DNA from: a virus
Length of the DNA: 23,986 nt
IMG/VR virus record: IMGVR_UViG_3300034198_002886
Location: 1 to 23,986 of that record
Strand: one strand, 5' to 3'
The notes below the pieces were generated by a model, which worked only from the letters and a program-made list of their open reading frames with translations, did not search any database and was not told the DNA's origin. Made by a program: the position numbers and the translations under genes. Shown here one piece after another: positions 2,641 through 17,984 of the stretch; the first letter of the stretch is position 1; every line of letters starts with the position of its first letter.

Positions 2641-3618
2641 ATGGGTCTCGGATTACCAGAAGCAATAATCGGCTCATCAATACTTGGTGTTGCTGGTGGT
2701 GCTATGAACAAGCCAAAAGCAGTTTCAGCACCTCCACCCCGTAACTATCTCAATGAGATGCGAACGGCACTGGATTCACAAGCGGCTATCCAAGGTCAGT
2801 TACTTGGATTAGAGTCCCAATACACCCCACAGTATCAAGCACTTCAACAACAGACCCTAATGGGTCAGATGGGTAACCTAGGAAACCTATATGGAACTGC
2901 TGGTCAACTATCACAAGGATTGCAGACACAGTACGCAGGTATGCAGATGCCCATCTATGGTGCATTAGGTCAGATGTCTCGTGATGCATATCAGAGTGGA
3001 CTTGGTGCTGAAACCATGGGTCTCTATAACACTATGCAGAGACAGGCACAGGCTGGTCTCGATGCTGGTTATGGACTTACTCCAGAGATGCAGGCACAGG
3101 CACAGCAATCGGCTCGTGCGGCTATGACCGCAAGGGGACTCGCTGGCGGTGGACAGGGTGTTGCACAGGAGGTTCTTAACTCCTATGCCCTAGGAAAAGA
3201 TAGATATCAAACATCGTTGGCTAACGCACAAGGTGCGTATAATCTTGGAACTAATCAGTTCGCAAATGGTATGGCTACCTATGGAACTCCGATGATGGCT
3301 CAACTTAATCAAGTTTCACCAACTTCACTTATTGGAACTGCTGGCACTATGGCTGGTGCATTGGGAACTAAGATTTTCCAACCAGAATCTCAGTACTCTG
3401 CTGGAGTATATGGTGCTAACCAAGCGAACGAAATGAATACACAACTTGCAAACCAACAGGCACAGGCTGGCTGGGCTTCTGGAATGATGGGCATGGCTGG
3501 AAGCCTTGGTGGTTCATTGCTTAAAAATCCTGCATTATTTACTGGAACTACAACTCCAAAAGTCCCAAATGAAGCATATCTAAATTCTATTGGATACGGC
3601 ATTTCTGGAGACGCTTAA
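2641..3618 (+). CDS. Internal virion (ejection) protein, T7 gp14-like
   Basis: A 325-residue protein with a hydrophobic Gly/Ala segment at the N terminus (about 5-22, AIIGSSILGVAGGA), then long Gln/Ala/Met/Gly-rich helices (YQALQQQTLMGQMGNLGNLY, MQAQAQQSARAAMTARGL). It ends with further small-residue segments (SLIGTAGTMAGALGTK, MGMAGSLGGSLL). This composition is typical of podovirus ejection proteins that insert into the outer membrane of the host during infection, as T7 gp14 does. It is the first of three consecutive genes placed like gp14, gp15 and gp16. It starts 1 bp after the previous stop in an AT-rich leader without a Shine-Dalgarno, implying translational coupling. No enzymatic motif is seen. 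Confidence 0.65.
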   Translation: MGLGLPEAIIGSSILGVAGGAMNKPKAVSAPPPRNYLNEMRTALDSQAAIQGQLLGLESQYTPQYQALQQQTLMGQMGNLGNLYGTAGQLSQGLQTQYAGMQMPIYGALGQMSRDAYQSGLGAETMGLYNTMQRQAQAGLDAGYGLTPEMQAQAQQSARAAMTARGLAGGGQGVAQEVLNSYALGKDRYQTSLANAQGAYNLGTNQFANGMATYGTPMMAQLNQVSPTSLIGTAGTMAGALGTKIFQPESQYSAGVYGANQANEMNTQLANQQAQAGWASGMMGMAGSLGGSLLKNPALFTGTTTPKVPNEAYLNSIGYGISGDA

Positions 3619-3621
3619 TTT

Positions 3622-6039
3622 ATGGCTTCACCATTTCAACAATACCAAGGTGGTATCGCACCAGTAGCAGGCATCGCTGAGGCTGGTGCTAATATTGGTC
3701 GTATGTCTCAACAGGGACTAGCCAGTTTTGGTCAGTCTCTCGCTGAAGGTATTCAAAAGTATCAAGAGAACTCTGCAGAGAATCAGATGATTGACCAAGA
3801 GGCACAGGGTCTCGGTCAGCAGTTGAAGCAGTACCATGATATGTTTGCTAACAATCCAGAGTACGCTGACTTCTCAAAGCAGTTATCTCCTTTTGTAGAA
3901 AAACTTTCTAAGATTCCAGAGATGTCACTCGCTCAGAAGCGTGGTGCATTGAATGGTGCTAAGGTTGCATTTAGTCAGATTGGAACAAATCTCCAGATGT
4001 ACGATAAGTTCCTGCAGATGGAGAAGTTGAGTGCGATGCAGAGGGCATTGGATACTCCTATCGAAACAAACCTCAAGGGAGAGAGCCTAAAGGTATCTGC
4101 TCCATTGTATGTTAAAGATGCATTAAGATTGTTCGATTACAAGAAGGACTACGCTTCTCAAGAGCAGGAGTTCATCGCTAAAATTTATAAACAGAATAAC
4201 GACAATCCTAAGAACACTATCGATGTAACGCAGGCACTCGCCTCGTACAGACAGGCTGTCAAAGATGCGTCAACTGAACTCGCTAAGACTAATCCTTTAG
4301 GAAATATTCTTGGTGAGCAGGTCGATGCACAGATTGCTAGACGCTCTAAGGAGGGTCTATCTCCAGCAGAGCAGATGGCTTACGCTAAAACAGTTAATGT
4401 TTCTGCAGAACAACTAGCCAAGACTAGAGGTGTAACGAATGCACCAGCCATACTTGAAGGTGATTTAAATAAATATTTATTAACCAAGGATGCCAGTGGA
4501 AACTTAGTTAAGAGCAAAGAATACAAGGCAATGCAAGGTAACAAACTTCAAGCAAATCCTTTAAATGTACAGAATAAGAACAGATATCTGTTTGAAAGAG
4601 AAACCAAACAAGAGGCAGAGGCTTTAGGAATCTGGGACGAAAAAGAAAGATTAAAGGCACAGAAACTAGATAACGCACTTGAGAAGGGTCAGTTTGAGGC
4701 TTCCAAAGTAAGACCGAATGAAAACGCTTACTACCAGAGTGTCATCGATAAGATGAATGAAATCAAGAATGCTAAAGGTATTGAGTCGAGAAAATCAATG
4801 CTCGCAGACAAAGACATTCAATCAAAGATTTCTGAGTACGCTAAGGGTAATTTTGATGAAGTTGGAATACCATCTGAAGCACTAAAACTTGCTAACAAAT
4901 TAGGTTTTGATAGGACTGATTATGGTTTCAACATGAACGCACAAACGCTCGCAGAGGCACTTCCTCTCGGTCTTGGTGCTGTAGCCCTACCAATGCAGTA
5001 TGGTGAAGTTAATGAAAAACTACCACCAGCGTTAACAGACTTCTTCTCAAGAATTAAAGAAGGTAAGATTAATAAAGATACTGCAACTGTTGATGTAGGA
5101 AGACCAGATGTTTCAGCAAAGAAACAACAAGAAATTAACAGGGCTAAACCAATTTGGCAACAAACTCCAGAAACTATTGCAAACAATAATACTGCTGTTC
5201 AAACAGGAGTTCCTGTTGGTGGTGCAAAAAATCCTTCACAACTTAAACTCGGAGATATTAATATCGGTAGCCAAGAGCAGATGAGGGCTATTCCGCAGGC
5301 TGAGAGAACACAGATTCTCAAGCAGACATTCGCCAAGATTCTCGGCAAGAAGGATGCTAACGGCAACTTCGTAGTTCCTTATGACTTCGACCAGACCATG
5401 AAGTTCTTTGCTCCTAGCGAACCTGTTGTTAAAAATATCGCTGGTATTGGAATGATGATTCAACAACCAGATGGAAAATGGGAACAACTTAAGGGTCAAG
5501 GATTACAAGATATGCGTAAAGAAGGAATGGGTGTGTTTGGAAGAGTTGACCCTAATACTGGCGAACTAGCAGAAGATGAAGTTGGAATCGAGGGTAGCGG
5601 TATCATGGTATCTGGAGTCTATAAGGGAAGCGATGCATCCCTAGATAAGTTCTATGACGATATGGGTGCGTTCTCTGATGCACGAAGAGGATTAAAGAGA
5701 GCATTAGAAGTCAATGCTATGACTGGTGAATCCTTGAATCCTTCACTTCGTGGTGAGATGGCTGTTGAAGTATCGATGATTATATCTGGTCTTCGTAAGG
5801 ATGTTGTTGGTGGTGGACAGGTATCCGACTATGAAAACAAATTACTACAGAAGATTGTTGCAGACCCAGCAGCGATATTCAGTCTAGAGTCTGCTGATAA
5901 AGCGGCTTTACAAGCAATCCTTGCTAGAACAGAGAGAAAGATTCTTGCATACGGAAATGGACGGGGATTATCTGTAAGATTAACAGATACAGGCTTGACA
6001 CCAACGCAATCTGCTAGGAAAAAGATAAAAGGTTTATAA
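3622..6039 (+). CDS. Internal virion (ejection) protein, T7 gp15-like
   Basis: An 805-residue, largely helical and highly charged protein between the gp14-like and giant gp16-like genes, in the place and size class of T7 gp15 (about 750 residues). The N terminus (MASPFQQYQGGIAPVAGIAE) is followed by Gln-rich helices (about 30-130) and Lys/Glu-rich coiled stretches (about 300-400). A Gly/Ile-containing region follows at about 590-680 (GIGMMIQQPDGKW). The C terminus is helical and basic (SARKKIKGL). No membrane segment or catalytic signature is evident. A part of the periplasmic DNA-ejection conduit is inferred from position. The segment around 4440-5260 is visibly more AT-rich than the flanks. 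The gap from the upstream gene is 3 bp. Confidence 0.6.
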   Translation: MASPFQQYQGGIAPVAGIAEAGANIGRMSQQGLASFGQSLAEGIQKYQENSAENQMIDQEAQGLGQQLKQYHDMFANNPEYADFSKQLSPFVEKLSKIPEMSLAQKRGALNGAKVAFSQIGTNLQMYDKFLQMEKLSAMQRALDTPIETNLKGESLKVSAPLYVKDALRLFDYKKDYASQEQEFIAKIYKQNNDNPKNTIDVTQALASYRQAVKDASTELAKTNPLGNILGEQVDAQIARRSKEGLSPAEQMAYAKTVNVSAEQLAKTRGVTNAPAILEGDLNKYLLTKDASGNLVKSKEYKAMQGNKLQANPLNVQNKNRYLFERETKQEAEALGIWDEKERLKAQKLDNALEKGQFEASKVRPNENAYYQSVIDKMNEIKNAKGIESRKSMLADKDIQSKISEYAKGNFDEVGIPSEALKLANKLGFDRTDYGFNMNAQTLAEALPLGLGAVALPMQYGEVNEKLPPALTDFFSRIKEGKINKDTATVDVGRPDVSAKKQQEINRAKPIWQQTPETIANNNTAVQTGVPVGGAKNPSQLKLGDINIGSQEQMRAIPQAERTQILKQTFAKILGKKDANGNFVVPYDFDQTMKFFAPSEPVVKNIAGIGMMIQQPDGKWEQLKGQGLQDMRKEGMGVFGRVDPNTGELAEDEVGIEGSGIMVSGVYKGSDASLDKFYDDMGAFSDARRGLKRALEVNAMTGESLNPSLRGEMAVEVSMIISGLRKDVVGGGQVSDYENKLLQKIVADPAAIFSLESADKAALQAILARTERKILAYGNGRGLSVRLTDTGLTPTQSARKKIKGL

Positions 6040-6047
6040 ACTATTTT

Positions 6048-9000
6048 ATGGCTGAACAATACTCTCAACCAAGGGCATATTTGGGGGGCAATGATGCCCA
6101 ACCCAGCAATGTCACTAACACTGGAAATAAAGCGTATCTAGACGATAGTCTCTACGCACCATTATCTAGTAGTGGAGGTAGTTCTGTTCAGCAGTTTACT
6201 GGCGATGAAGAAGTAGATAAATGGTTAAACACTCTCCCTGCAGAACAGCGTCAGATTGAATTGGATGCAATCAATGCTCCTTTGACTGGCGAAGAGGTCG
6301 CACAGAAGAGAGCAAAGAATCCATTGTATGTTCCAACATTAGAAGAGTTTAAAGCATTAAGAGATTATAAGAAGACACAGGATACAGAGTTCCTTAGTGG
6401 TCTAGGAGAAGCGGCTATGCACATCGCTGGACAGTTTGGAAGTGCGGCTGAGTTTATTGCAAAACACCCTTTAGAATCAACATATAAAGCACCTGCTAAT
6501 TTAGTTGAGGCTACATTCCAAGGGTTCAGAAATTTCTATGGTATGCTTGGTGAGTCAGAGAATCCAGACTCTGTAATGTTTAAATTCAAGGATTTAATAA
6601 CTGGTGATGGAACTGATGAATCACAGTACGACCAATATTTAAAAGCGTTGCAGTTCAATAACGATACGAATGATTTGATGTCTGGAAAGCAGACAATCGT
6701 TATGAACAAGGACTACATCAACAACGAGATTGTACAGGTAACATCTAATTTTACAGACCCAACATTGCTGGTTGGTTTGATGACTGGCGGTGTAGGTTTA
6801 ACTGGCAAGATAGCACAGGCTATCGGACAGGCTGAGAGACTAGCCGCATTCGGTGCTAAGGCATCCGCAATCAAGAATGGTCTTTACGCTGGAACTTTAA
6901 GATGGGGTGCTGGTGTTCCTCTAGAGATGATTGGTGGTGCGACAAGAAACACTATCGATTACGCTGTGCAGAAGGGTGCAAACGCATTCGAGTTCGCAAG
7001 CGGTATCAGTGCCGCAGAGGGTCAGAATTATGTCAGACGATTCGGATTCGGAACTGCTGTTACAGATTTAGGTGGCTACGGAGTGCCAATCGCATCGGAA
7101 CTATCTCAAGCGTATGTTGGTGCTGGAATCGCTAAGGGCTTTGGTGAGGCACTGAACGCAACAATCGCAACGGCTGAGAAGCAGGGATTCAAGCGTGGTG
7201 GAATCTCGTTCGCTAGACAGGCACTAGAAGAATCTAATGCCATGCTCGCCAAGGGTGGACAGGGTCTATCTAAACACGCATCAAATTTACTCAAGGTACT
7301 CGACAAGGCTGACCCGTTCTTAATCTACGCTAGGACTGGATTAGAGGGTGCTACGGCTGGTATGGTCGTAGGTGGCGGTCTAGGATACCTTAACGACAAG
7401 GAGCAAGGTATGTACTCTGGAATGGGTGCTGGTATGGCTCTCGGTGCTATCGGTGCTTTGGGTGGTCGTGGGTTATCTGATATCAGTGGTGCTACTAGGA
7501 GCATGAGGTATGGTGTGCAGGCTAAGATGGCTCTAGAGATAATGAAGGACAGAAGTCCAGTAAGCAACCAGACTTGGAGTCTATTGCAGAATGTATTTTC
7601 AAAGAATGTAGATGATATCAACAAACTCATCGTTGCTGTAGACACGGCACTTCCTAACACGGAATGGGCTACAATGAGTCCAGATGAATTAAAGCAGACG
7701 CTCAAGGCTCGTGGTTTAGACCCAGATAAGTTTGACGGATTCGAGCATGAGACAGTTCCTGCATTCGAACCAAAAGCAAAGCAAACAGATTTTTCACAGG
7801 TATCTCCAGAGAAGTATGCAAACTTCCTTGCGATAGATTTTGGATATCTTCCAGAGACTATGAAGAATGCGATTTCTGGTGGTGACCTATCATCGTTCAG
7901 AGATTTATTGGTAAAGAAAGGATTAACTAAATTTAAGGATGTTCCAGACAATATAGTTAAATTAGTTGCAGATGAATATATTAAGCGTGAAAATACTCAC
8001 CGAGCAGAAGTTCAAGGAAGAAAATTTGAGTTCACTGAGCAACAGAAAGCAAGATACGATAGACTTGCGGCAGAAGAAAGTGGTGGCAAACAACCTAAAG
8101 GAACTGCTGAAGCATACAAGAAGCAGATGCAGGATTACTTTGAAAAGAATAAAAAAGATTACTACCATGGTTCTCAAGAATTTACAAAAAACGAAAGATT
8201 CAAACGACAAGTTGAAACGGCTTTAGATGTTCAAAGAAGTTTAGACCCTTCTGAAAGAGCAAAAGACCTTCAACAATTAAAGGATAGTTTAGACCCTAAA
8301 AATATTAAGATTTATGAAGAGACTTTACGCAGGGCTAAAGAAGAAGGCTTAGTTAATTCTAAAGGAGTTGGTGAGGCTGAGGCTAGTGTTGTTCGCTACA
8401 AGAAGGATGCTAATGGAAACAAGATTCGTGCCATCGATGAGATGGGTTATGAACTTCCTACTGTTGCAGAATTATCTGGAGCAAGCGGTTGGCATGAATC
8501 GAAGGGTGTTGGTGGAAAGAGTAGAGTTGTTATCAACACAGATTGGTTATCAAAGAACACTGCCCCTCATGAGTTCGGTCACGGGATATTTTCAGAGTTA
8601 GTTTTTCAACCAGTATTTAAAGAGAGAATTAGAGGCTATGTCCTAGGCAATGTAGATAAGGATGGTAAGATGATTACACCTCCGTTGATTGATTTAGAGA
8701 CAGCCAAGAAGTTCTTCACAAGATATATTGATATAGAAAATACAGCAGAGATTTCCGTTGAAAGAAAGCAACTTCTAGATAAGGCACTCAAAGAATACTT
8801 TATCGATGGTAAGATGAATGTCATAGACCCTGTATCGAAAACACCATTCTTAGAGAAACTCGTTGAAGAGTTCGGTACATACTATTGGACTCAGTTTATT
8901 AAAGGCAAGCCAGTCGATTTCTTATTTAGGGGTGGTGAGATGTCCATGATGGATAATGTTCTTGAGATGGTTAAGAACGGATATATTGACATGATGAAGA

Positions 9001-12000
9001 CGGAGATTGAACGGGCTAATCCTAACTTTAGATTCAATGAAGATGCCACCAGTCTCAATGATGCATTTACAGACAGAAAAGGTAATCGTGTCAGAGTCCC
9101 AGAACTAGACGCACTCATGACCGACATGGTCAAGGCTGTCATGCAGACAAATCGCAAAGGTTCGTTTGATTTCAGTTCTTTATCAGTTGCTGGACAGGAG
9201 GCTTACATCAAGGCTAATGGTCTTGAGCGTATCGTAAAAAAGCAACCCACTGGCAAGTACAAGGTGATGTCGGACAAAGAATTAGATGTCGCTAACAAGG
9301 CTCGTGGTGTAGAAATTTTTAAGGCTCTGGACGCACTAGACCCTAAACTCAAGGTCGTTAAGGATGACAAAGGTAATGTTATCGGTGGATTAACCAAGGT
9401 TAACAACGAGTATGTAGGATTGTTATCCAACGAGGTTCTAGACCATCTGGTTGCCACTGGACATATGTCGCAGGGAGAGTCCTCTAAGATTAAATTGTTC
9501 CAAGATATTTCTTTGGGTAAGACTAAAGCCAATGTCGTTGAGATGACCTACTTCGGTCTATCCGCACAGACAACAACTGGTGCTGTAGATATCCGTGTAT
9601 ACGGAAACAAAGTTCCAGTCAAGAATCGCAAGGTTCTCGTTCTTGGAGTAGATAACACATTCAGACAGAATGGTGTATTCAGTTCTAAACTGTCCACCAT
9701 GGACTGGCAGGTAATCGAGACTCGTGGTAAGAACCTATGGGAAGACCCTGTAGTCAGACAACTGTGGGGAGATGACAGGGGAGCATTTGAGGGTGACTTC
9801 TTTAGATACCTAGAGAACGCAAGCAAGCCTAAGACAGACCCAACTAGAATCAATGACTTCGCTGAACTCTGGCAGGAGAGCGGTGCTATGAAGCGTAACA
9901 TCATGCAACAGTTCGCTGGCTTAGGCAAGCAGGCTGATGTTGCTTACGCTAACACTCCTTTGACGGAGATTCACTGGGACATCAACCAGTCGTTCATGTA
10001 CCTTCGTGCCGATAGAGCGAGCAACATCCGTTTATCGAATGAGAGGATAACATACGACCATAGGAACGCTGGACATGATATCAGTCGCAACATGATGCCT
10101 GCTGAGATGATGAGCGAGGATACTCCTAATGGAAAGATACACAAGCACCCATCTGGTTATAGATTCATTGAGAACGATAAAGGTGTAAGAGTATTTGATG
10201 CGAATGGAGATGACATCGGTTCGTTTAAAAATCTTGATGACGCACTCGTCAAGGCTAAACAAGACTACACTGAAAAGTTTCCGAATGAAAAGCCTATCGA
10301 TAGTTTAGACAATGTTAAGGCTGATGTAGTTAAACCGCAGTTTGAATCAAGGGCTGAATATATTAATAAAAGAGTTATAAAACAACTTAAATCAATGGGT
10401 GGAAATTTTCATGGAAAAGCAATAAAGAGATTAAAAGAAAAAATTGAACAGTCTAAATTTGACCTTAAACTTTCAGAAAATAAGCAAAGTACAGGTTTAG
10501 TAAATATGAGAGACCTAATAGAAGGGTATACAAAAGATGTAGAACTTTTCCAAAAACTATTAGATGGATTTGAAAGTGGTGATTTATCTAAATTAACACA
10601 AACTGAAATACTTGCTGGATTAGATAGACTAGACCCATATGTTTATCCAAAAGTAAATAAAACCATATTAGATATGTTTATGGAGGCTGGTATTGTATTT
10701 GCAAAAGAATGGGATGCTAAGTATCCTATGACATTCCGTTCTCCTTTAGATGATGCAATTAAATCATTTTTTGCTGGAGATAAAGAAGTCACTGCACAAC
10801 AGTTGCTTAAAAAATTACTCCGTGTAGGTTCTTCAAAGGGAATTCAAATCTATTCTGAGGCTGACGCAATTGGTTTGGTTAAATTGCTTAAATCAAAAAT
10901 TGAAAAAACCAAAAGTATACATAGAACTATTAATCCAGAAACTGGAAACTATTATCCTCGTGGAACTCCAGATGCTCCAGTTATTGAAAAGGTCGCTGGT
11001 GAAAAACCAGCAATATTAGATAAAGATGAAATTCTTAAGTACTTAGATGAAAACAAAATTATTCTTACGATTGAAGAGAATGCTAAAGAAGTAAGAGGAT
11101 TAAATACGGAAGACTATACTGCAGATGGCACTAGAAGCGGTTATCGTGAAACGGCATTAAGAATTAATCCTATGTATATGCATGATGTTATTGGTCACTA
11201 CAATAAGGCTGTAGCACATCTTAGAACTACAGATAGAGTTGATTCTGAAGGTAATCGTGTTAATTTTGGTGATGAATATCAAGCCAATAACACAGATAGA
11301 GCCAATGAAAAAAATCTAATTTATTTAAAAAGAAGAGCAGAAAGAGCAAAGAAATTTCTTGGAATATTAGATTTAAATACACTTAAGAATGTTGCTTTGA
11401 CTGATGACGCAGTAAATAGTTCTTTAGAAAAATTGGCTGACTCGACAATTACATCGTTTGATATTGAGGCGGTTGTTGGTCAACTTATAAATTCACAATC
11501 TACAAGCAAAGAACGAGCATTTAATTTTGCTATTCAAAATGCGGCACTAAATGCCGCTCCAGATGGAGGTACATTAACTAATTTTAGTGAAAAGAAATTA
11601 AAGAATTATGCATTAACAATTAATAATCTAATAGATGCTTGGGCTAGTTCTTCATTACAATTATTAGGAAAAGTTAGCGAAGGGGAATATAAATCTTATT
11701 TACATACTGGTAGGGATGATAGTATTAACGCACGAAATATTATAGACAGGGGTGTTTTATCAAAAGAAAATATGACAAAGTTTATTAAGTTTGTTCAAAA
11801 TAATTATAAACTTAATTTAAATAAACCTGCTTATGATTTATTTCTTGAACTTGCAAGTCATAACACAATGTTTGTGCAAGGATTTGGCGAACCATTATTT
11901 ATGCCAGAAAATAACCAAAAGGTTGGGCTTAAAGTTCATAGAGAATTATTATCTTTAGCGGCAGATAGAGTAACAAAAACAAAAGAGTTTACAAAAGAAA

Positions 12001-15000
12001 ACGGATTCGATGATTTGCAAAAAATAATACAGGAAGGATATTTTGGTGGAAGATATAAACTAGATTATATTATGCCAGAAAAAATCATGACTGGAATAAC
12101 TGAATTTGCTAATCTTGGAGAAATGAAAAGAGGTCGCAAATCCAATGTTCTTGATAGATTAGGTAATGGAACAAATCTAGAATACTTAGAGGATGTACAT
12201 AGTTATTTAAGTTTTGGTAACATAAGATTTACTGAAAATGGTGATGTATTTTTTAGACCAATAGGAGACGATTATGGTAGACCTTTAAGGGCTACCAGTG
12301 TTGGTCACGGTGCTAGAGAAATTTTTGTTAATTCTTTTAAACATTTTGATTCAAAAGAAATAGTTGATAGCCTTGTTAAAAGAGCAATGGTACAAGATTC
12401 GCTTAAAGAAAGATTACAAAGAGCAGATGAATCAAGTGAAGCAATAGATAGAGAATCATGGAAATTTGAAGATTTAAGTAAAGATAAAATCATGGAATGG
12501 TCTATTGATTTTCAGTCTCAAATTGATAGATATAATGCGGCTAATTTAGAAGGTGAGGCTTATCCGTTTATGTCTGTAGAAGAATGGGGAGTGCATTTAA
12601 TTAAGATGCAGATTCGTGAGGCTATTCAGAAGGGACAAAGAAAAATAACCATCACACACCCAGATGATTCTCCAACAAAATCTAATGCACCAGAATCTCG
12701 TTATAGAATGTATGGTGTAATTCTTCCTAATCTTGCTAGAGGAATTGTAAAAAAATATGGAATTGAAGTTAAACAAGACCTTAAACTACATACTAAAAAT
12801 GTTTCAGATGCATTAGAAGCCCATGGAAAACACGCTTCAGTAACTCATGTTTTAATGCAAAATGCACTAGATATTTTTCAACGAAATGCATCTGGTGAAT
12901 CTGCTGATGTTATTAATAAAATAACAATTGAATTGGCTATGCCTGTTAAAAATTTAATTGCTAGAGAAAAAGATAGGTTGATTAAAAATGCTGGAAAAAC
13001 AGATGAATCAACAATCGAATCTGCTACAAGACTTTCTAGAGATGGAGGAGACGATTGGAATTTTACAACAACTGAGTTAATTCAAAATGGAGTTAATAAT
13101 CCAGAACTTAGAATTGCTTTACAAAATGTAGTTGGTGGCAAAACTAATGAATGGAAATCATATTCAAAATATTTAATAGAATCTGAACGCTCTATTAAAG
13201 GAAAACAAATGCCTTCTAATGTAAATTTGTGGACTATTCCAGATGCTGATAAAGCAAAACTGCAAACAGAGTTAGCAATTGACCGAGGATATAGTTTCAT
13301 TCTTAACGATGAAATCATCCAAGCGTTCATTCGTAACGATGAGGGTACGGCTATGAAGCAGTATATGCCTAGGGATAAGAAAGAGAAAGTCGTTCCTCGC
13401 ATTGTTAATAAAGAAGAATACAATAGAATGATGTCTATTATTAAATCTCCAAATATGGCACATCTTAAGGCGGCTTATGATAGAGAAGATATAACATTCG
13501 ATAACTTTGACCATAGTAAATATAGAAATTATCATGTAGTGTCTCATGGTCTAGATAATGCTCCAACATTTGATTGGACAGATTCAGACACTGGTGAAGT
13601 TATACATAAGGGAGAAGGTGGTGGAACATATCCTGCATATAAAACTCCATACGCATGGGCTACAACAAAGCCAGATATGGCTGATATGATTAATAGAGTA
13701 GGTGAATTAAATAAAGCAGAACATGGTGAATGGATTGCACCAGTAATGTTCTTTAAATCTCCAGACACAAAGACCCGTGGAACTCCAAATGGTTCTAATG
13801 GTTATTTGAATGCAATGAGTTTACTTAATCGTAAGGGTGCAATTGATGATGTTAAATTTAAGAATGCTTTAGTTCTCGCATTCAACGAAAGCAAGAAACC
13901 TATTGGAAATATCGATACTCCTATTTCAGAACTTCTAAGTAATGCTAGAAGTATTCTTTCAGATAAAACATATGCAATGAAATCAAGGGCAAAATTAATC
14001 GAAAGATTAAATAGCAAAATGCATAATGTTATTGATTTTAATAATCCAGAAGTTCAAAAATTAATTCCTACAATTGGTGATTATACTGGTAAAAAAATTA
14101 TTAAACCAGAGTTTTTAGATGCAGTATTTGGAATGATGAGTGACCCATTATTCAGTCATGCTAAATCTCGTCAGTCATATGGTGGTGATGTGTATGGTAT
14201 GTTAATGTTTGATGGTACAGTTAGGGCTGAAAAGGGAGACTTCCATGGCTCTTATGCATATAGTATTATAAAAACAGATGGCACACCAGTTAAAGTTGAT
14301 TACTTAACAACACCTATAAATCCAACTAAGTTAGTTAAGTCTGCTATAACTAAAGTTAAATACGAAAAAGGAAATAAGAGTATGCCTGTGTTTGATGAAG
14401 AAGGAAATGGTATTTATAAAACAACTAAATTAAAACCAAAATCAACTTCATCGTTCATGGTTCAAACTGGTCAAACACAAAGACCTATTGTTCATAATAA
14501 ACTTTATATGCCTAGAGATGTTAATGACAAAACTGTTGGCAAAATTGTTTATGAGCCTAGAGATATTTCTTGGGTAGATATTGGTCACTATCCTAACGAT
14601 GGAGACCATGAACATAATGTATGGGAGAACAGGAACTCTGGCTTGTGGGCTGACTTTGATGGAAAAATAACAACAAAAAATCCACAAGAATGGGATGACC
14701 CATCTTTTACACATTCTGAGTGGTTTATGGGTTTAAGAAGGAAACACAGAGATGATAGAAGAGCATATAGCCCAGAATCATCTGGAAGGTATGAGAATCC
14801 AAAATATGATGCTGATGGAAAATTAACAGAAAAAGGAAGAATAAGTGTAACATCTCTTACCGATAGAGAATATACCATGGATGGTTTAGATAAAGATATT
14901 GCTTACTATGCTAAGGTAAAAAAAGACTTAGCAGATAGACTTGGATTTCCTGCAGTTGATTATGATGCCTATCTTTTTAGACCATCTAAAAAAATACAGA

Positions 15001-15674
15001 AAGAAATGGGTGTTGATTTAGACGCACATGAATCTTATGGTGACGGACTTTATTACAACAAAGCAATTAAATTTATGCCTAACGAGTTCAAGGATGGACT
15101 CAAGCGTCTCATCGATGCGGTTGATGCACAATCTAATAGAGACCAAGTTCCAGCAAATGTTAAGGCTGGAGTAAGCACTCTCGTGCAGGCTATCAAGAGA
15201 CAGGGCGATGAAGATGTTAGGGCAGGAATCATCCGTGGTGTCCAGCAACTCGCTGACGCTATCGATAGACAATCTGATGAAGACAAAGTACCAGAGAGAG
15301 TTAAGGCTGGAATCAAGAATCTAATCAAGGCGAGCCAAGAGGTTGGCAAGCCAGTTAAACCCAAGGCACAACCTAGAACCACTGCCAAGACTACCCCTAA
15401 GAATGTGCAGGTAGAGAACGAACCTGCTCCAGAGACACAACCAGTATTCAACAACAACTTCCCACAACCTCAGTTCACATCCAAGTGGAGGTCGTTCGTA
15501 CAGGAGAACACTACCGATGGTAACAGCATATTCAAGAACGCAATGAACTATGTCATCATACAGGCTGGAAAGAAGTACAGGGTTTACAATCCATACAAGA
15601 CGATGATTGGCATCTACGATGACCTAGAGCAAGCCAAACGAAGAGTTCAAAGAGACGAGCCTAAACAACGATGA
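6048..15674 (+). CDS. Giant polyvalent ejection protein with HEFGH metallopeptidase motif (T7 gp16 position)
   Basis: A 3208-residue single frame, more than twice the length of T7 gp16 (about 1300). Gly/Ala-rich membrane-like segments lie near residues 238-262 and 431-478. A zinc-peptidase motif H841-E-F-G-H845 follows, with E940/E941 in EEFGTYYW as a possible third ligand. From about 1590 to 2240 there are fragments of a domain common in large phage polyvalent proteins (ILKYLDENKI 1662, YRETALRI 1699, AHLRTTDR about 1720, IREAIQKGQRKITIT 2189, VILPNL about 2224). A further such module lies around 2640-2760 (GDVYGMLMF). Helical repeats occupy about 3014-3098, and a small beta/alpha module ends the protein. 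No lysozyme or transglycosylase motif is convincing. A likely role is ejection with the genome, with the peptidase acting on host envelope, host protein or virion protein. Its GC content swings between about 18% and 53% per 60 bases. Confidence 0.7.
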   Translation: MAEQYSQPRAYLGGNDAQPSNVTNTGNKAYLDDSLYAPLSSSGGSSVQQFTGDEEVDKWLNTLPAEQRQIELDAINAPLTGEEVAQKRAKNPLYVPTLEEFKALRDYKKTQDTEFLSGLGEAAMHIAGQFGSAAEFIAKHPLESTYKAPANLVEATFQGFRNFYGMLGESENPDSVMFKFKDLITGDGTDESQYDQYLKALQFNNDTNDLMSGKQTIVMNKDYINNEIVQVTSNFTDPTLLVGLMTGGVGLTGKIAQAIGQAERLAAFGAKASAIKNGLYAGTLRWGAGVPLEMIGGATRNTIDYAVQKGANAFEFASGISAAEGQNYVRRFGFGTAVTDLGGYGVPIASELSQAYVGAGIAKGFGEALNATIATAEKQGFKRGGISFARQALEESNAMLAKGGQGLSKHASNLLKVLDKADPFLIYARTGLEGATAGMVVGGGLGYLNDKEQGMYSGMGAGMALGAIGALGGRGLSDISGATRSMRYGVQAKMALEIMKDRSPVSNQTWSLLQNVFSKNVDDINKLIVAVDTALPNTEWATMSPDELKQTLKARGLDPDKFDGFEHETVPAFEPKAKQTDFSQVSPEKYANFLAIDFGYLPETMKNAISGGDLSSFRDLLVKKGLTKFKDVPDNIVKLVADEYIKRENTHRAEVQGRKFEFTEQQKARYDRLAAEESGGKQPKGTAEAYKKQMQDYFEKNKKDYYHGSQEFTKNERFKRQVETALDVQRSLDPSERAKDLQQLKDSLDPKNIKIYEETLRRAKEEGLVNSKGVGEAEASVVRYKKDANGNKIRAIDEMGYELPTVAELSGASGWHESKGVGGKSRVVINTDWLSKNTAPHEFGHGIFSELVFQPVFKERIRGYVLGNVDKDGKMITPPLIDLETAKKFFTRYIDIENTAEISVERKQLLDKALKEYFIDGKMNVIDPVSKTPFLEKLVEEFGTYYWTQFIKGKPVDFLFRGGEMSMMDNVLEMVKNGYIDMMKTEIERANPNFRFNEDATSLNDAFTDRKGNRVRVPELDALMTDMVKAVMQTNRKGSFDFSSLSVAGQEAYIKANGLERIVKKQPTGKYKVMSDKELDVANKARGVEIFKALDALDPKLKVVKDDKGNVIGGLTKVNNEYVGLLSNEVLDHLVATGHMSQGESSKIKLFQDISLGKTKANVVEMTYFGLSAQTTTGAVDIRVYGNKVPVKNRKVLVLGVDNTFRQNGVFSSKLSTMDWQVIETRGKNLWEDPVVRQLWGDDRGAFEGDFFRYLENASKPKTDPTRINDFAELWQESGAMKRNIMQQFAGLGKQADVAYANTPLTEIHWDINQSFMYLRADRASNIRLSNERITYDHRNAGHDISRNMMPAEMMSEDTPNGKIHKHPSGYRFIENDKGVRVFDANGDDIGSFKNLDDALVKAKQDYTEKFPNEKPIDSLDNVKADVVKPQFESRAEYINKRVIKQLKSMGGNFHGKAIKRLKEKIEQSKFDLKLSENKQSTGLVNMRDLIEGYTKDVELFQKLLDGFESGDLSKLTQTEILAGLDRLDPYVYPKVNKTILDMFMEAGIVFAKEWDAKYPMTFRSPLDDAIKSFFAGDKEVTAQQLLKKLLRVGSSKGIQIYSEADAIGLVKLLKSKIEKTKSIHRTINPETGNYYPRGTPDAPVIEKVAGEKPAILDKDEILKYLDENKIILTIEENAKEVRGLNTEDYTADGTRSGYRETALRINPMYMHDVIGHYNKAVAHLRTTDRVDSEGNRVNFGDEYQANNTDRANEKNLIYLKRRAERAKKFLGILDLNTLKNVALTDDAVNSSLEKLADSTITSFDIEAVVGQLINSQSTSKERAFNFAIQNAALNAAPDGGTLTNFSEKKLKNYALTINNLIDAWASSSLQLLGKVSEGEYKSYLHTGRDDSINARNIIDRGVLSKENMTKFIKFVQNNYKLNLNKPAYDLFLELASHNTMFVQGFGEPLFMPENNQKVGLKVHRELLSLAADRVTKTKEFTKENGFDDLQKIIQEGYFGGRYKLDYIMPEKIMTGITEFANLGEMKRGRKSNVLDRLGNGTNLEYLEDVHSYLSFGNIRFTENGDVFFRPIGDDYGRPLRATSVGHGAREIFVNSFKHFDSKEIVDSLVKRAMVQDSLKERLQRADESSEAIDRESWKFEDLSKDKIMEWSIDFQSQIDRYNAANLEGEAYPFMSVEEWGVHLIKMQIREAIQKGQRKITITHPDDSPTKSNAPESRYRMYGVILPNLARGIVKKYGIEVKQDLKLHTKNVSDALEAHGKHASVTHVLMQNALDIFQRNASGESADVINKITIELAMPVKNLIAREKDRLIKNAGKTDESTIESATRLSRDGGDDWNFTTTELIQNGVNNPELRIALQNVVGGKTNEWKSYSKYLIESERSIKGKQMPSNVNLWTIPDADKAKLQTELAIDRGYSFILNDEIIQAFIRNDEGTAMKQYMPRDKKEKVVPRIVNKEEYNRMMSIIKSPNMAHLKAAYDREDITFDNFDHSKYRNYHVVSHGLDNAPTFDWTDSDTGEVIHKGEGGGTYPAYKTPYAWATTKPDMADMINRVGELNKAEHGEWIAPVMFFKSPDTKTRGTPNGSNGYLNAMSLLNRKGAIDDVKFKNALVLAFNESKKPIGNIDTPISELLSNARSILSDKTYAMKSRAKLIERLNSKMHNVIDFNNPEVQKLIPTIGDYTGKKIIKPEFLDAVFGMMSDPLFSHAKSRQSYGGDVYGMLMFDGTVRAEKGDFHGSYAYSIIKTDGTPVKVDYLTTPINPTKLVKSAITKVKYEKGNKSMPVFDEEGNGIYKTTKLKPKSTSSFMVQTGQTQRPIVHNKLYMPRDVNDKTVGKIVYEPRDISWVDIGHYPNDGDHEHNVWENRNSGLWADFDGKITTKNPQEWDDPSFTHSEWFMGLRRKHRDDRRAYSPESSGRYENPKYDADGKLTEKGRISVTSLTDREYTMDGLDKDIAYYAKVKKDLADRLGFPAVDYDAYLFRPSKKIQKEMGVDLDAHESYGDGLYYNKAIKFMPNEFKDGLKRLIDAVDAQSNRDQVPANVKAGVSTLVQAIKRQGDEDVRAGIIRGVQQLADAIDRQSDEDKVPERVKAGIKNLIKASQEVGKPVKPKAQPRTTAKTTPKNVQVENEPAPETQPVFNNNFPQPQFTSKWRSFVQENTTDGNSIFKNAMNYVIIQAGKKYRVYNPYKTMIGIYDDLEQAKRRVQRDEPKQR
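8568..8582 (+). other. Zinc-peptidase active-site motif HEFGH
   Basis: Codons for His841-Glu-Phe-Gly-His845 within the giant protein, in the context KNTAPHEFGHGIFSELV. HExxH preceded by a small/Pro-Ala helix start and a strand (SRVVINTDWL) is the classical zincin active site. The candidate third zinc ligand is Glu940 or Glu941, about 95 residues later, which would make it a gluzincin-type enzyme. Peptidase specificity cannot be read from the sequence. Confidence 0.65.
15087..15350 (+). repeat. Degenerate helical repeats near the C terminus of the giant protein
   Basis: Four imperfect units of roughly 20-28 residues, at about residues 3014-3098, share the pattern (V/F)(K/R)(A/D)G-x3-L-x2-A(I/V)-x2-Q-(S/G)(D/N)-x-D. 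Examples are FKDGLKRLIDAVDAQS, VKAGVSTLVQAIKRQGDED and VRAGIIRGVQQLADAIDRQS, followed by VKAGIKNLIKASQ. They are amphipathic helices followed by a Pro/Lys/Thr-rich linker. This may be an oligomerisation or spacer stalk. The DNA repeats are too diverged to look recent. Confidence 0.55.
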
Positions 15675-15976
15675 ATCCTACCGACCCAGATTTAGCGAAC
15701 GCAATCCAAGACTTCAAGAAGGGTGGATGGGTTATCGCTCTACTGGGTTCTATGGGTATGCTTGCTAGGTTAATCTTAACTGAGGAGAAGTATAGTTTCT
15801 GTGTATGGCTCAGAAAGATTATCGCTGGTGGCATTGTAGGGGTTCTGGCTTACTTCGCCCTGTACGGCACTAGCATAGACCCTCTGTACAAGAGCGTAAT
15901 CTATTCTATATCTGGCTCACTAGCCCCAGAGGTTTGGGAGTTCGTTAGACGCAAATTTAAAAAACAAACTAAATGA
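15671..15976 (+). CDS. LydA-type (superfamily III-like) phage holin
   Basis: A 101-residue membrane protein with three hydrophobic segments at about 20-36 (WVIALLGSMGMLARLIL), 50-66 (IIAGGIVGVLAYFALYG) and 73-92 (YKSVIYSISGSLAPEVWEFV), and a strongly basic C terminus (RRKFKKQTK). The layout, with LLGSMGMLARL, a central Gly-rich helix and a final APEVWEFV, resembles the LydA holin family. Such holins form inner-membrane lesions that trigger lysis at the end of the late programme. The ATG overlaps the stop of the giant gene (ATGA), so translation is probably coupled. T7 has its holin gene (17.5) in a comparable late position. No endolysin gene is visible next to it, so the lysis enzyme must lie elsewhere or be unconventional. 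Confidence 0.65.
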   Translation: MNPTDPDLANAIQDFKKGGWVIALLGSMGMLARLILTEEKYSFCVWLRKIIAGGIVGVLAYFALYGTSIDPLYKSVIYSISGSLAPEVWEFVRRKFKKQTK

Positions 15977-17042: not shown

Positions 17043-17238
17043 CTTTATTTTTAATATCAAAGGTTGGATTCTCTATTACGACAAATTGGTCAGAGCGAAA
17101 ATGGCGAATCCTGCCATCACATTCAAGAACAATAGCAAAGATATCGTTAGAAAATGTTCCTCCATCACGAACATATAATATAATGCCACCACCGAGTTCA
17201 GTAGTAACAAGCACAGGATTGCGGAACTCATAAATCAT
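17032..17238 (-). CDS. Small beta-rich protein of unknown function
   Basis: A 68-residue protein with alternating hydrophobic strands (NPVLVTTELGGGIILYV, IFAIVLECDGRIRHF, DQFVVIEN), suggestive of a small SH3-like or beta-barrel fold. Its ATG overlaps the stop of the phosphoesterase gene in an ATGA tetranucleotide, implying translational coupling. No catalytic residues are recognisable. The plus-strand frame over the same bases is a shadow. Confidence 0.45.
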   Translation of the reverse strand: MIYEFRNPVLVTTELGGGIILYVRDGGTFSNDIFAIVLECDGRIRHFRSDQFVVIENPTFDIKNKDEQ

Positions 17239-17984
17239 AGTCCTTTAACGGAGTAGATAAATTGTTTGCCTACCTTGTGGGCTTGCCAGACCTTCCAATC
17301 GTTGCCCTGCACAAACCCATAGAGCCAGCCGTGACCCCATTTAGAGGTGGCTAGGCGGTTCTTAGCGTAGCCCATATCCTCTTTACGACACAGACATCCA
17401 CCCGAAAATCCAACAGCCCCTCCGTGCCTCCTAGCGTTAGTCTGCTGGATGCTGTGAAGGTGACCCATAATCAAAGCACCACCTTGGTCAGCGTAATGTA
17501 TAGCGTGTTCCTCTACTGCTTTACCACCACAGGTATAGCCGTGAACGAACTTTACTTTGCCTAGGGTATGCACTCCGTCCTCTGCGTGGTATTCATAGAT
17601 GCTCTTGCAACCAACCGACTTCAATGTGTTCTTGATATCGTTATCTAAATCCATACAATAGTCTTTAACGATTCCGTTGGTATTGTTTGAGATAATCTGG
17701 CTGAGTCTGTCCTCGTGGTTGCCGTATAGGAATGCTGACAGGTTGTGCTGACCTAGACGCTTGATGAACTCTTTGCCAGACTTTACATCATCGACAAGGC
17801 TCTCATCTTCTTCCTGTCCAGAAGCACCCTTACGGATAGAACGAAAATCGAACGCATCTCCAAGCATTATGATTTGGTGGGGCTGGTACGAGCGTAGGAA
17901 CTTATAGAACTCCTTGGCTACATCGGCATCTATCATGTCACCATGACTGTCACCTACGGCTACGAATTTAATTAGTTTACTCAT
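17235..17984 (-). CDS. Calcineurin-type metallophosphoesterase
   Basis: A 249-residue protein with the full dinuclear-metal motif set of the family: GDSHGD (Asp12, His14), LGDAFDF (Asp43), GNHEDR (Asn89, His90), FVHGY (His148) and MGHLHS (His175, His177). These enzymes hydrolyse phosphomono- or phosphodiesters in proteins, nucleotides or nucleic acids. The specific substrate cannot be told from sequence. Phage members commonly sit among DNA-metabolism genes, as here, beside a PD-(D/E)XK-like protein, so a nucleic-acid or nucleotide substrate is a reasonable guess. The length is normal for a single catalytic domain with no Mre11-type capping extension. The start ATG overlaps the upstream gene by 8 bp. 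Confidence 0.85.
   Translation of the reverse strand: MSKLIKFVAVGDSHGDMIDADVAKEFYKFLRSYQPHQIIMLGDAFDFRSIRKGASGQEEDESLVDDVKSGKEFIKRLGQHNLSAFLYGNHEDRLSQIISNNTNGIVKDYCMDLDNDIKNTLKSVGCKSIYEYHAEDGVHTLGKVKFVHGYTCGGKAVEEHAIHYADQGGALIMGHLHSIQQTNARRHGGAVGFSGGCLCRKEDMGYAKNRLATSKWGHGWLYGFVQGNDWKVWQAHKVGKQFIYSVKGL

Follow-up and report, generated by a model that had tools for sequence, protein, structure and literature searches.

The delivery of large effector proteins by phages, before any gene is expressed, is a poorly understood process. Among the closest described systems are the polyvalent proteins (Iyer et al. 2017, PMC5512222), very large phage proteins of many domains that are believed to accompany the DNA inward, in which a zincin-like metallopeptidase (MPTase) is a typical hub domain and GNAT, ART and ParB-type domains also occur. 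The peptidases of polyvalent proteins have been proposed to release domains in cis, to act on host proteins or to serve packaging, and polyvalent proteins are said not to follow the toxin layout of a constant front, a processing middle and a variable end (PMC5512222). The N4 virion RNA polymerase (RNAP; gp50, 3500 aa) is packaged unprocessed, and a region encompassing its peptidase domain is required for encapsidation (PMC5512222). The lack of cysteine in N4-type virion RNAPs has been published and tied to injection or cell entry (PMC2784036, PMC3915230). Polymorphic toxins (PMC3482391) combine a constant front, a processing domain in mid-protein and a recombining effector part.

Here we analysed a stretch of 23,986 nucleotides (hereafter the window) that constitutes a separate IMG/VR virus record (IMGVR_UViG_3300034198_002886, positions 1 to 23,986). 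The following genes were annotated upstream of, at and directly behind a 9.6-kb frame encoding a giant protein:

2–1102, + strand: tail / head-closure protein, 5′ truncated (phrog_21185 tail, 1.3e-9; phrog_578 head closure Hc3, 7.5e-7)
1108–2208, + strand: tail-fibre-like protein (phrog_11355 tail fiber, 1.1e-7)
2641–3618, + strand: putative ejection protein A, 325 aa, 0 Cys (from gene order and cysteine count)
3622–6039, + strand: putative ejection protein B, 805 aa, 0 Cys (from gene order and cysteine count)
6048–15674, + strand: giant polyvalent-type protein in ejection position, 3208 aa, 0 Cys
15671–15976, + strand: holin-like protein adjoining the 3′ end of the giant (PF16083, 4.3e-4, below the Pfam cut-off; phrog_6384, 0.0012)

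A small ORF lies between the fibre gene and the 325-aa gene. The giant is the last ejection-position gene, in an order like that of T7 genes 14-15-16 and followed by the holin-like gene, so that the T7 gp16-type position assigned to it in an earlier, sequence-only reading holds; so does the claim of a single uninterrupted ORF at 6048–15674, which has an ATG start and encodes 3208 aa. Beyond the holin-like gene, replication and recombination genes (Erf, DnaC-like, O-like, exonuclease VIII, endonuclease VII) occupy the reverse strand, and a metallophosphoesterase gene (17235–17984, − strand; phrog_221, 9e-14; Pfam Metallophos) lies amid these reverse-strand genes.

Using the tail gene as an anchor, we collected 80 IMG/VR loci, for which longer stretches were then fetched. 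Both the gene order and the cysteine-poor ORFs recur across these loci, and their giants align with the window protein, although alignments past residue 1430 are rough. The family is a clade of IMG/VR podoviruses, in which complete giants measure 2258–3375 aa in the main group and 3511–3725 aa in a diverged group. One contig from a different record (L001) carries an intact full-length relative with 77% overall identity to the window giant. Since dN/dS across residues 1–1433 is 0.08–0.24, which indicates strong purifying selection, the frame represents a real gene; an artefact or a set of fused genes was ruled out, the frame being intact in many relatives. tblastn of the giant (in two parts) and of its peptidase region found no counterpart among isolated phages, and among three relatives searched against the same phages two gave nothing and the third matched through cargo parts only. 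The peptidase part likewise gave no confirmed match in GTDB species genomes. Scans of the whole window giant with Pfam, PHROG and NCBIfam returned no match of weight, a 45-residue stray to phrog_7232 (0.003) being discarded. When ejection protein B was scanned in eight relatives, LysM was detected in four (three above the Pfam cut-off); this peptidoglycan-binding domain lies in the second ejection gene of L028, L029, L048 and L074, the length of which ranges from ~655 to 1397 aa.

The 325-, 805- and 3208-aa proteins of the window all lack cysteine, and nearly all of its remaining proteins have some. This exclusion extends to the relatives, with 5 cysteines in 71,696 residues for 25 giants, none in 34,078 residues for homologues of ejection protein B (n = 41) and 7 in 16,022 residues for homologues of ejection protein A (n = 52), compared to 7.4 per 1000 residues in other ORFs. 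T7 gp15 and gp16 and N4 gp50–52 are also free of cysteine. The giant resembles T7 gp16 (1318 aa) in being third after two ejection proteins, in having no cysteine and in lacking a classical transmembrane segment, yet it is 2.4 times longer and adds the peptidase and cargo described below. Based on gene position and cysteine exclusion, the giant is probably delivered with the DNA at infection, and the almost complete lack of cysteine from all three proteins of the cassette, seen in dozens of relatives, offers a simple sequence mark for ejected proteins.

In some relatives, an ORF of ~266 aa with 6–7 cysteines lies between ejection genes A and B and interrupts the cysteine-free run:

L010, 13596–14396: Cys-containing ~266-aa ORF
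L031, 11781–12584: Cys-containing ~266-aa ORF
L041, 4799–5599: Cys-containing ~266-aa ORF

Separately, Phage C75C1 (OQ984151.1, 38751–7576), the tail protein of which is a distant relative of that in the window, encodes a cysteine-free protein of 2769 residues after its fibre gene. Similarity of this protein to the window giant was not detectable and the other C75C1 proteins that were checked likewise lack cysteine, and this phage was dropped as evidence.

Conservation of the giant across relatives is high at residues 50–520 and 800–1400, patchy thereafter, and high again in the final 60 residues. As judged from these alignments, residues 1–1410 form a constant chassis made up of a predicted helical N-terminal part, the peptidase, a downstream core and a small module. 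Outside the peptidase, four segments were delimited:

6195–7637, + strand: conserved helical, Gly-rich N-terminal chassis part, residues ~50–530 (conserved in ~24 relatives)
10107–10265, + strand: small strand-rich module, copy 1, at the chassis end, residues 1354–1406
10347–14627, + strand: replaced / diverged putative cargo segment, residues ~1434–2860
15480–15668, + strand: C-terminal cap, module copy 2, residues 3145–3207

Residues 50–560 are glycine-rich and predicted to be helical, from an all-helical model of low confidence; at a pLDDT of 47, the N-terminal model was too weak as a fold-search query and was dropped. Membrane-like segments, which had been proposed for this protein, were not recovered, as no 19-residue window exceeds a Kyte-Doolittle value of 1.6 (maximum 1.24, at residue 241); T7 gp14–16 likewise contain no 19-residue window passing this threshold. 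The cap is conserved as the terminus of the complete family members examined. Its profile also matches window residues 1355–1399 and the equivalent place in many relatives, so that the cap module also closes the chassis.

Between chassis and cap, the giant appears to have been exchanged. The DNA of the window and of L001 is 83–98% identical at 6001–10,200 and from 15,001 to the end, and 50–89% identical between these intervals, with values of 50–85% in the replaced segment itself. Correspondingly, dS between the two giants is ~1.0 in residues 1434–2860 and 0.08–0.24 in the chassis and the C-terminal part. Selection at the protein level does not explain such a jump in dS, and the middle segment was therefore most likely swapped by recombination. 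Comparable patterns were observed elsewhere in the family: L119, L122 and L126 have chassis that are 96–97% identical and long low-identity blocks past residue ~1310, whereas L120 and L132 share 93–98% identity in cargo residues 1600–2000 with chassis that are only 71% identical. The pattern is weaker within the diverged group, in which L136 and L137 are nearly alike throughout. Both this replaced middle and the total lack of cysteine in the giant had been missed by the sequence-only reading.

We refer to the exchanged segment as cargo by extension from the domains found there in relatives. GNAT was recognised in the cargo of L119, as two stretches in L122, as matches in L120 and weakly in L129; the cargo of L126 includes an ART-PolyVal domain just under the Pfam cut-off (5.8e-7; 30.8 bits against a cut-off of 31.2), and that of the more distant relative L118 a ParB C-terminal domain (3.8e-37). 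Fragments of the window cargo recur in L121, L138, L118 and L133, and the window cargo, including these recurring pieces, matches no known family in Pfam, PHROG or NCBIfam. The several polyvalent-protein modules that had been attributed to the giant itself were thus not found: GNAT, ART-PolyVal and ParB were recognised only in the relatives, which carry several unrelated domains per polypeptide, and the peptidase is the only domain recognisable in the window giant. This absence of a known domain from its own cargo would fit an ordinary internal core protein, part of a gp16-like conduit with a middle that diverges by drift and no effector. However, a dS of ~1.0 in this segment against 0.08–0.24 elsewhere points to recombinational replacement rather than drift, and sister phages have recognised GNAT and ART domains at the equivalent place, so that we consider a core protein without effector highly improbable.

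Upstream of the exchanged segment, in the chassis, lies the peptidase:

8445–9167, + strand: zincin-like metallopeptidase domain, residues ~800–1040 (from alignment, AlphaFold2 secondary structure, hhalign and dN/dS)
8568–8582, + strand: HEFGH active-site motif, H841–H845
8865–8870, + strand: E940–E941, candidate third zinc ligand (invariant; opposite the conserved NEF stretch of the N4 peptidase in the alignment)

The HEFGH motif is present at residues 841–845, as previously noted, within a domain conserved in all 25 sequences compared, with E842, H845, E940, E941 and F942 invariant. The combination that defines a zincin in sequence, HExxH plus a downstream Glu, is therefore found here (H841–H845, E940/E941). 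When aligned by hhalign to a profile combining the virion RNAP of N4 with ten of N4 type, HExxH pairs with HExxH, the downstream Glu region with the NEF segment conserved in the N4 MPTase, and the strand preceding the HExxH helix with its counterpart in the N4 virion RNAP peptidase. This alignment scored 36–43, and 36–40 when repeated; none of 100 column shuffles scored above 22, the N-terminal domain scored 23, and the remaining parts of the giant did not exceed that value. An AlphaFold2 model of residues 700–1430 built from 25 sequences (mean pLDDT 68) placed a strand at 825–829, the HExxH helix at 838–849 and the E940/E941 helix at 934–951, an order of secondary-structure elements that is that of a zincin (fold description in PMC5512222).

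At the level of the fold, the evidence was less decisive. Foldseek of the peptidase model against the PDB gave no match at E ≤ 0.001, and profile searches against PDB sequences yielded chance matches only. The best VIA-align hit was a zincin-type protein (Z 4.2, rmsd 4.0, 135 aligned) and the second-best zincin-type hit reached 3.8, barely above unrelated rows; together with the lack of a significant Foldseek match, this leaves the zincin fold unproven. Structure prediction, suggested earlier as a check, thus agrees in the order of elements and offers no significant PDB fold match. Overall, the placement of HEFGH within a zincin-like metallopeptidase domain is well supported by these comparisons.

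This peptidase, together with size, the lack of cysteine and cysteine-free virion neighbours, likens the giant to the N4 virion RNAP. The two differ in that the peptidase lies in the first third of the window giant and after the polymerase in N4, and in the variable cargo of the window family; phmmer with the T7-type RNAP domain of N4 (residues 998–2103) gave nothing at E ≤ 1. With its zincin-like MPTase, and with GNAT, ART and ParB-type domains in its relatives, the giant belongs by sequence with the polyvalent proteins, and Foldseek against viral models returned uncultured phage proteins with the UniProt names 'Large polyvalent protein associated domain', 'NAT_SF' and 'ART-PolyVal-like'. A peptidase of this kind is the usual hub of polyvalent proteins (PMC5512222), so that finding one here is unremarkable in itself, and the exchangeable segment behind a constant part is the more informative feature. 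A fixed front and cap around a recombining middle, a three-gene cysteine-free podovirus cassette and a branch with an altered active site set the window family apart from the polyvalent proteins described. The family follows the layout of constant front, peptidase and variable cargo that polyvalent proteins were said not to have (PMC5512222), with a cap in addition. It shares this layout with polymorphic toxins, from which it differs in being phage-borne, in having a conserved C-terminal cap behind the variable part and in having a holin-like gene, not an immunity gene, directly downstream of the window giant.

We propose, with middling confidence, that the giant is packed and ejected as a constant front and cap carrying recombining effector cargo, which a peptidase acting in cis releases. 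The giant would reside inside the phage head and leave it together with the DNA or shortly before, with the constant front (residues 1–1410) and the C-terminal cap serving packaging, passage and processing. The metallopeptidase would most likely cut its own chain in cis during or after ejection, freeing cargo domains that, exchanged among related phages by recombination, may act on the host at the onset of infection. Release in cis is preferred because the peptidase belongs to the constant front and precedes the segment that is exchanged. At the sequence level, this proposal draws on the frame and its conservation, the set of peptidase motifs, the avoidance of cysteine throughout the cassette, the swapped middle segment and the cargo domains of relatives, from which we infer the virion location, the ejection, the peptidase activity, its action in cis and the biochemical role of the window cargo.

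The metallopeptidase could alternatively be an effector itself that, once inside the cell, cleaves a host protein (e.g. a defence or regulatory protein), with the cargo adding further activities and self-cleavage unnecessary. Effector peptidases in conflict systems are an option named in PMC5512222, and the peptidase is under the strongest purifying selection in the giant (dN/dS 0.078), as in a working enzyme. Yet one would expect weapons directed at the host to vary, and this domain sits in the constant part; its place ahead of the cargo is, moreover, the one expected of a processing domain. Both points make a host-directed peptidase somewhat unlikely.

The active site varies within the family. 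The main group has HExxH, and seven diverged relatives (L123, L124, L127, L128, L136, L137 and L139) have EExxH, with Glu at residue 841. Accordingly, the family does not strictly need the canonical zinc site; the EExxH site may be read as inactive or differently metallated and under selection, and this branch cautions against assuming ordinary zinc catalysis throughout. Another HExxH in L136 and L137 (RFHEAKH, at ~3249) was seen and not taken as the active site. That the first zinc ligand is Glu in seven relatives would suit a peptidase-like domain that is mainly structural, used in packing the giant into the head, with its active site a remnant or weakly used. The N4 precedent, in which the virion RNAP is unprocessed in the virion and the MPTase region needed for encapsidation (PMC5512222), also allows a structural role. 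A purely structural domain, however, would not require E842, H845, E940 and E941 to be invariant in 25 of 25 sequences, and we regard this role as unlikely.

In the sequence-only reading, the protease took the place of the gp16 transglycosylase; in a version of this idea, it would open the envelope for the DNA, acting on outer membrane or periplasmic proteins or on peptide cross-links. The ejection-gene position is compatible with such a function, as is the lack of a Pfam match to a lytic transglycosylase in the three ejection-position proteins of the window or in protein B of eight relatives, and the LysM domain of protein B in relatives suggests that the cassette handles peptidoglycan. Nevertheless, a phmmer search of all giants and ORFs with T7 gp16 as the query found nothing at E ≤ 1, and the domain aligns with the peptidase of polyvalent proteins and matches no cell-wall endopeptidase family in Pfam. 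An envelope-opening protease is thus very unlikely, and 'in place of the transglycosylase' is a misleading description, given that neither a sequence link to gp16 nor a transglycosylase match in the giant or in these eight B proteins was found. An ejected polyvalent-type protein with a zincin-like peptidase, the other half of that proposal, is well supported by position, cysteine exclusion, the conserved motif and the N4 profile match.

Returning to a packed and ejected giant with cis-released cargo, we suggest, somewhat more tentatively, that this podovirus family uses a cysteine-free giant as a delivery chassis, in which host-modifying cargo is swapped between a constant front and a cap in a layout like that of polymorphic toxins. 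As part of this suggestion, the acetyltransferase, ADP-ribosyltransferase and ParB-type cargo would be directed at the host cell that has just been infected. Phages of near-identical sequence whose main difference is the cargo of a single protein, itself probably injected, represent a natural experiment, which lets one ask what effect each cargo has on the host and which parts of the chassis and cap suffice for loading and injection. As a separate observation, one 88-kb IMG/VR contig (L072/L073) contains a pair of distinct tail genes and a pair of distinct family giants ~45 kb apart, and represents either two phages joined or neighbouring prophages.
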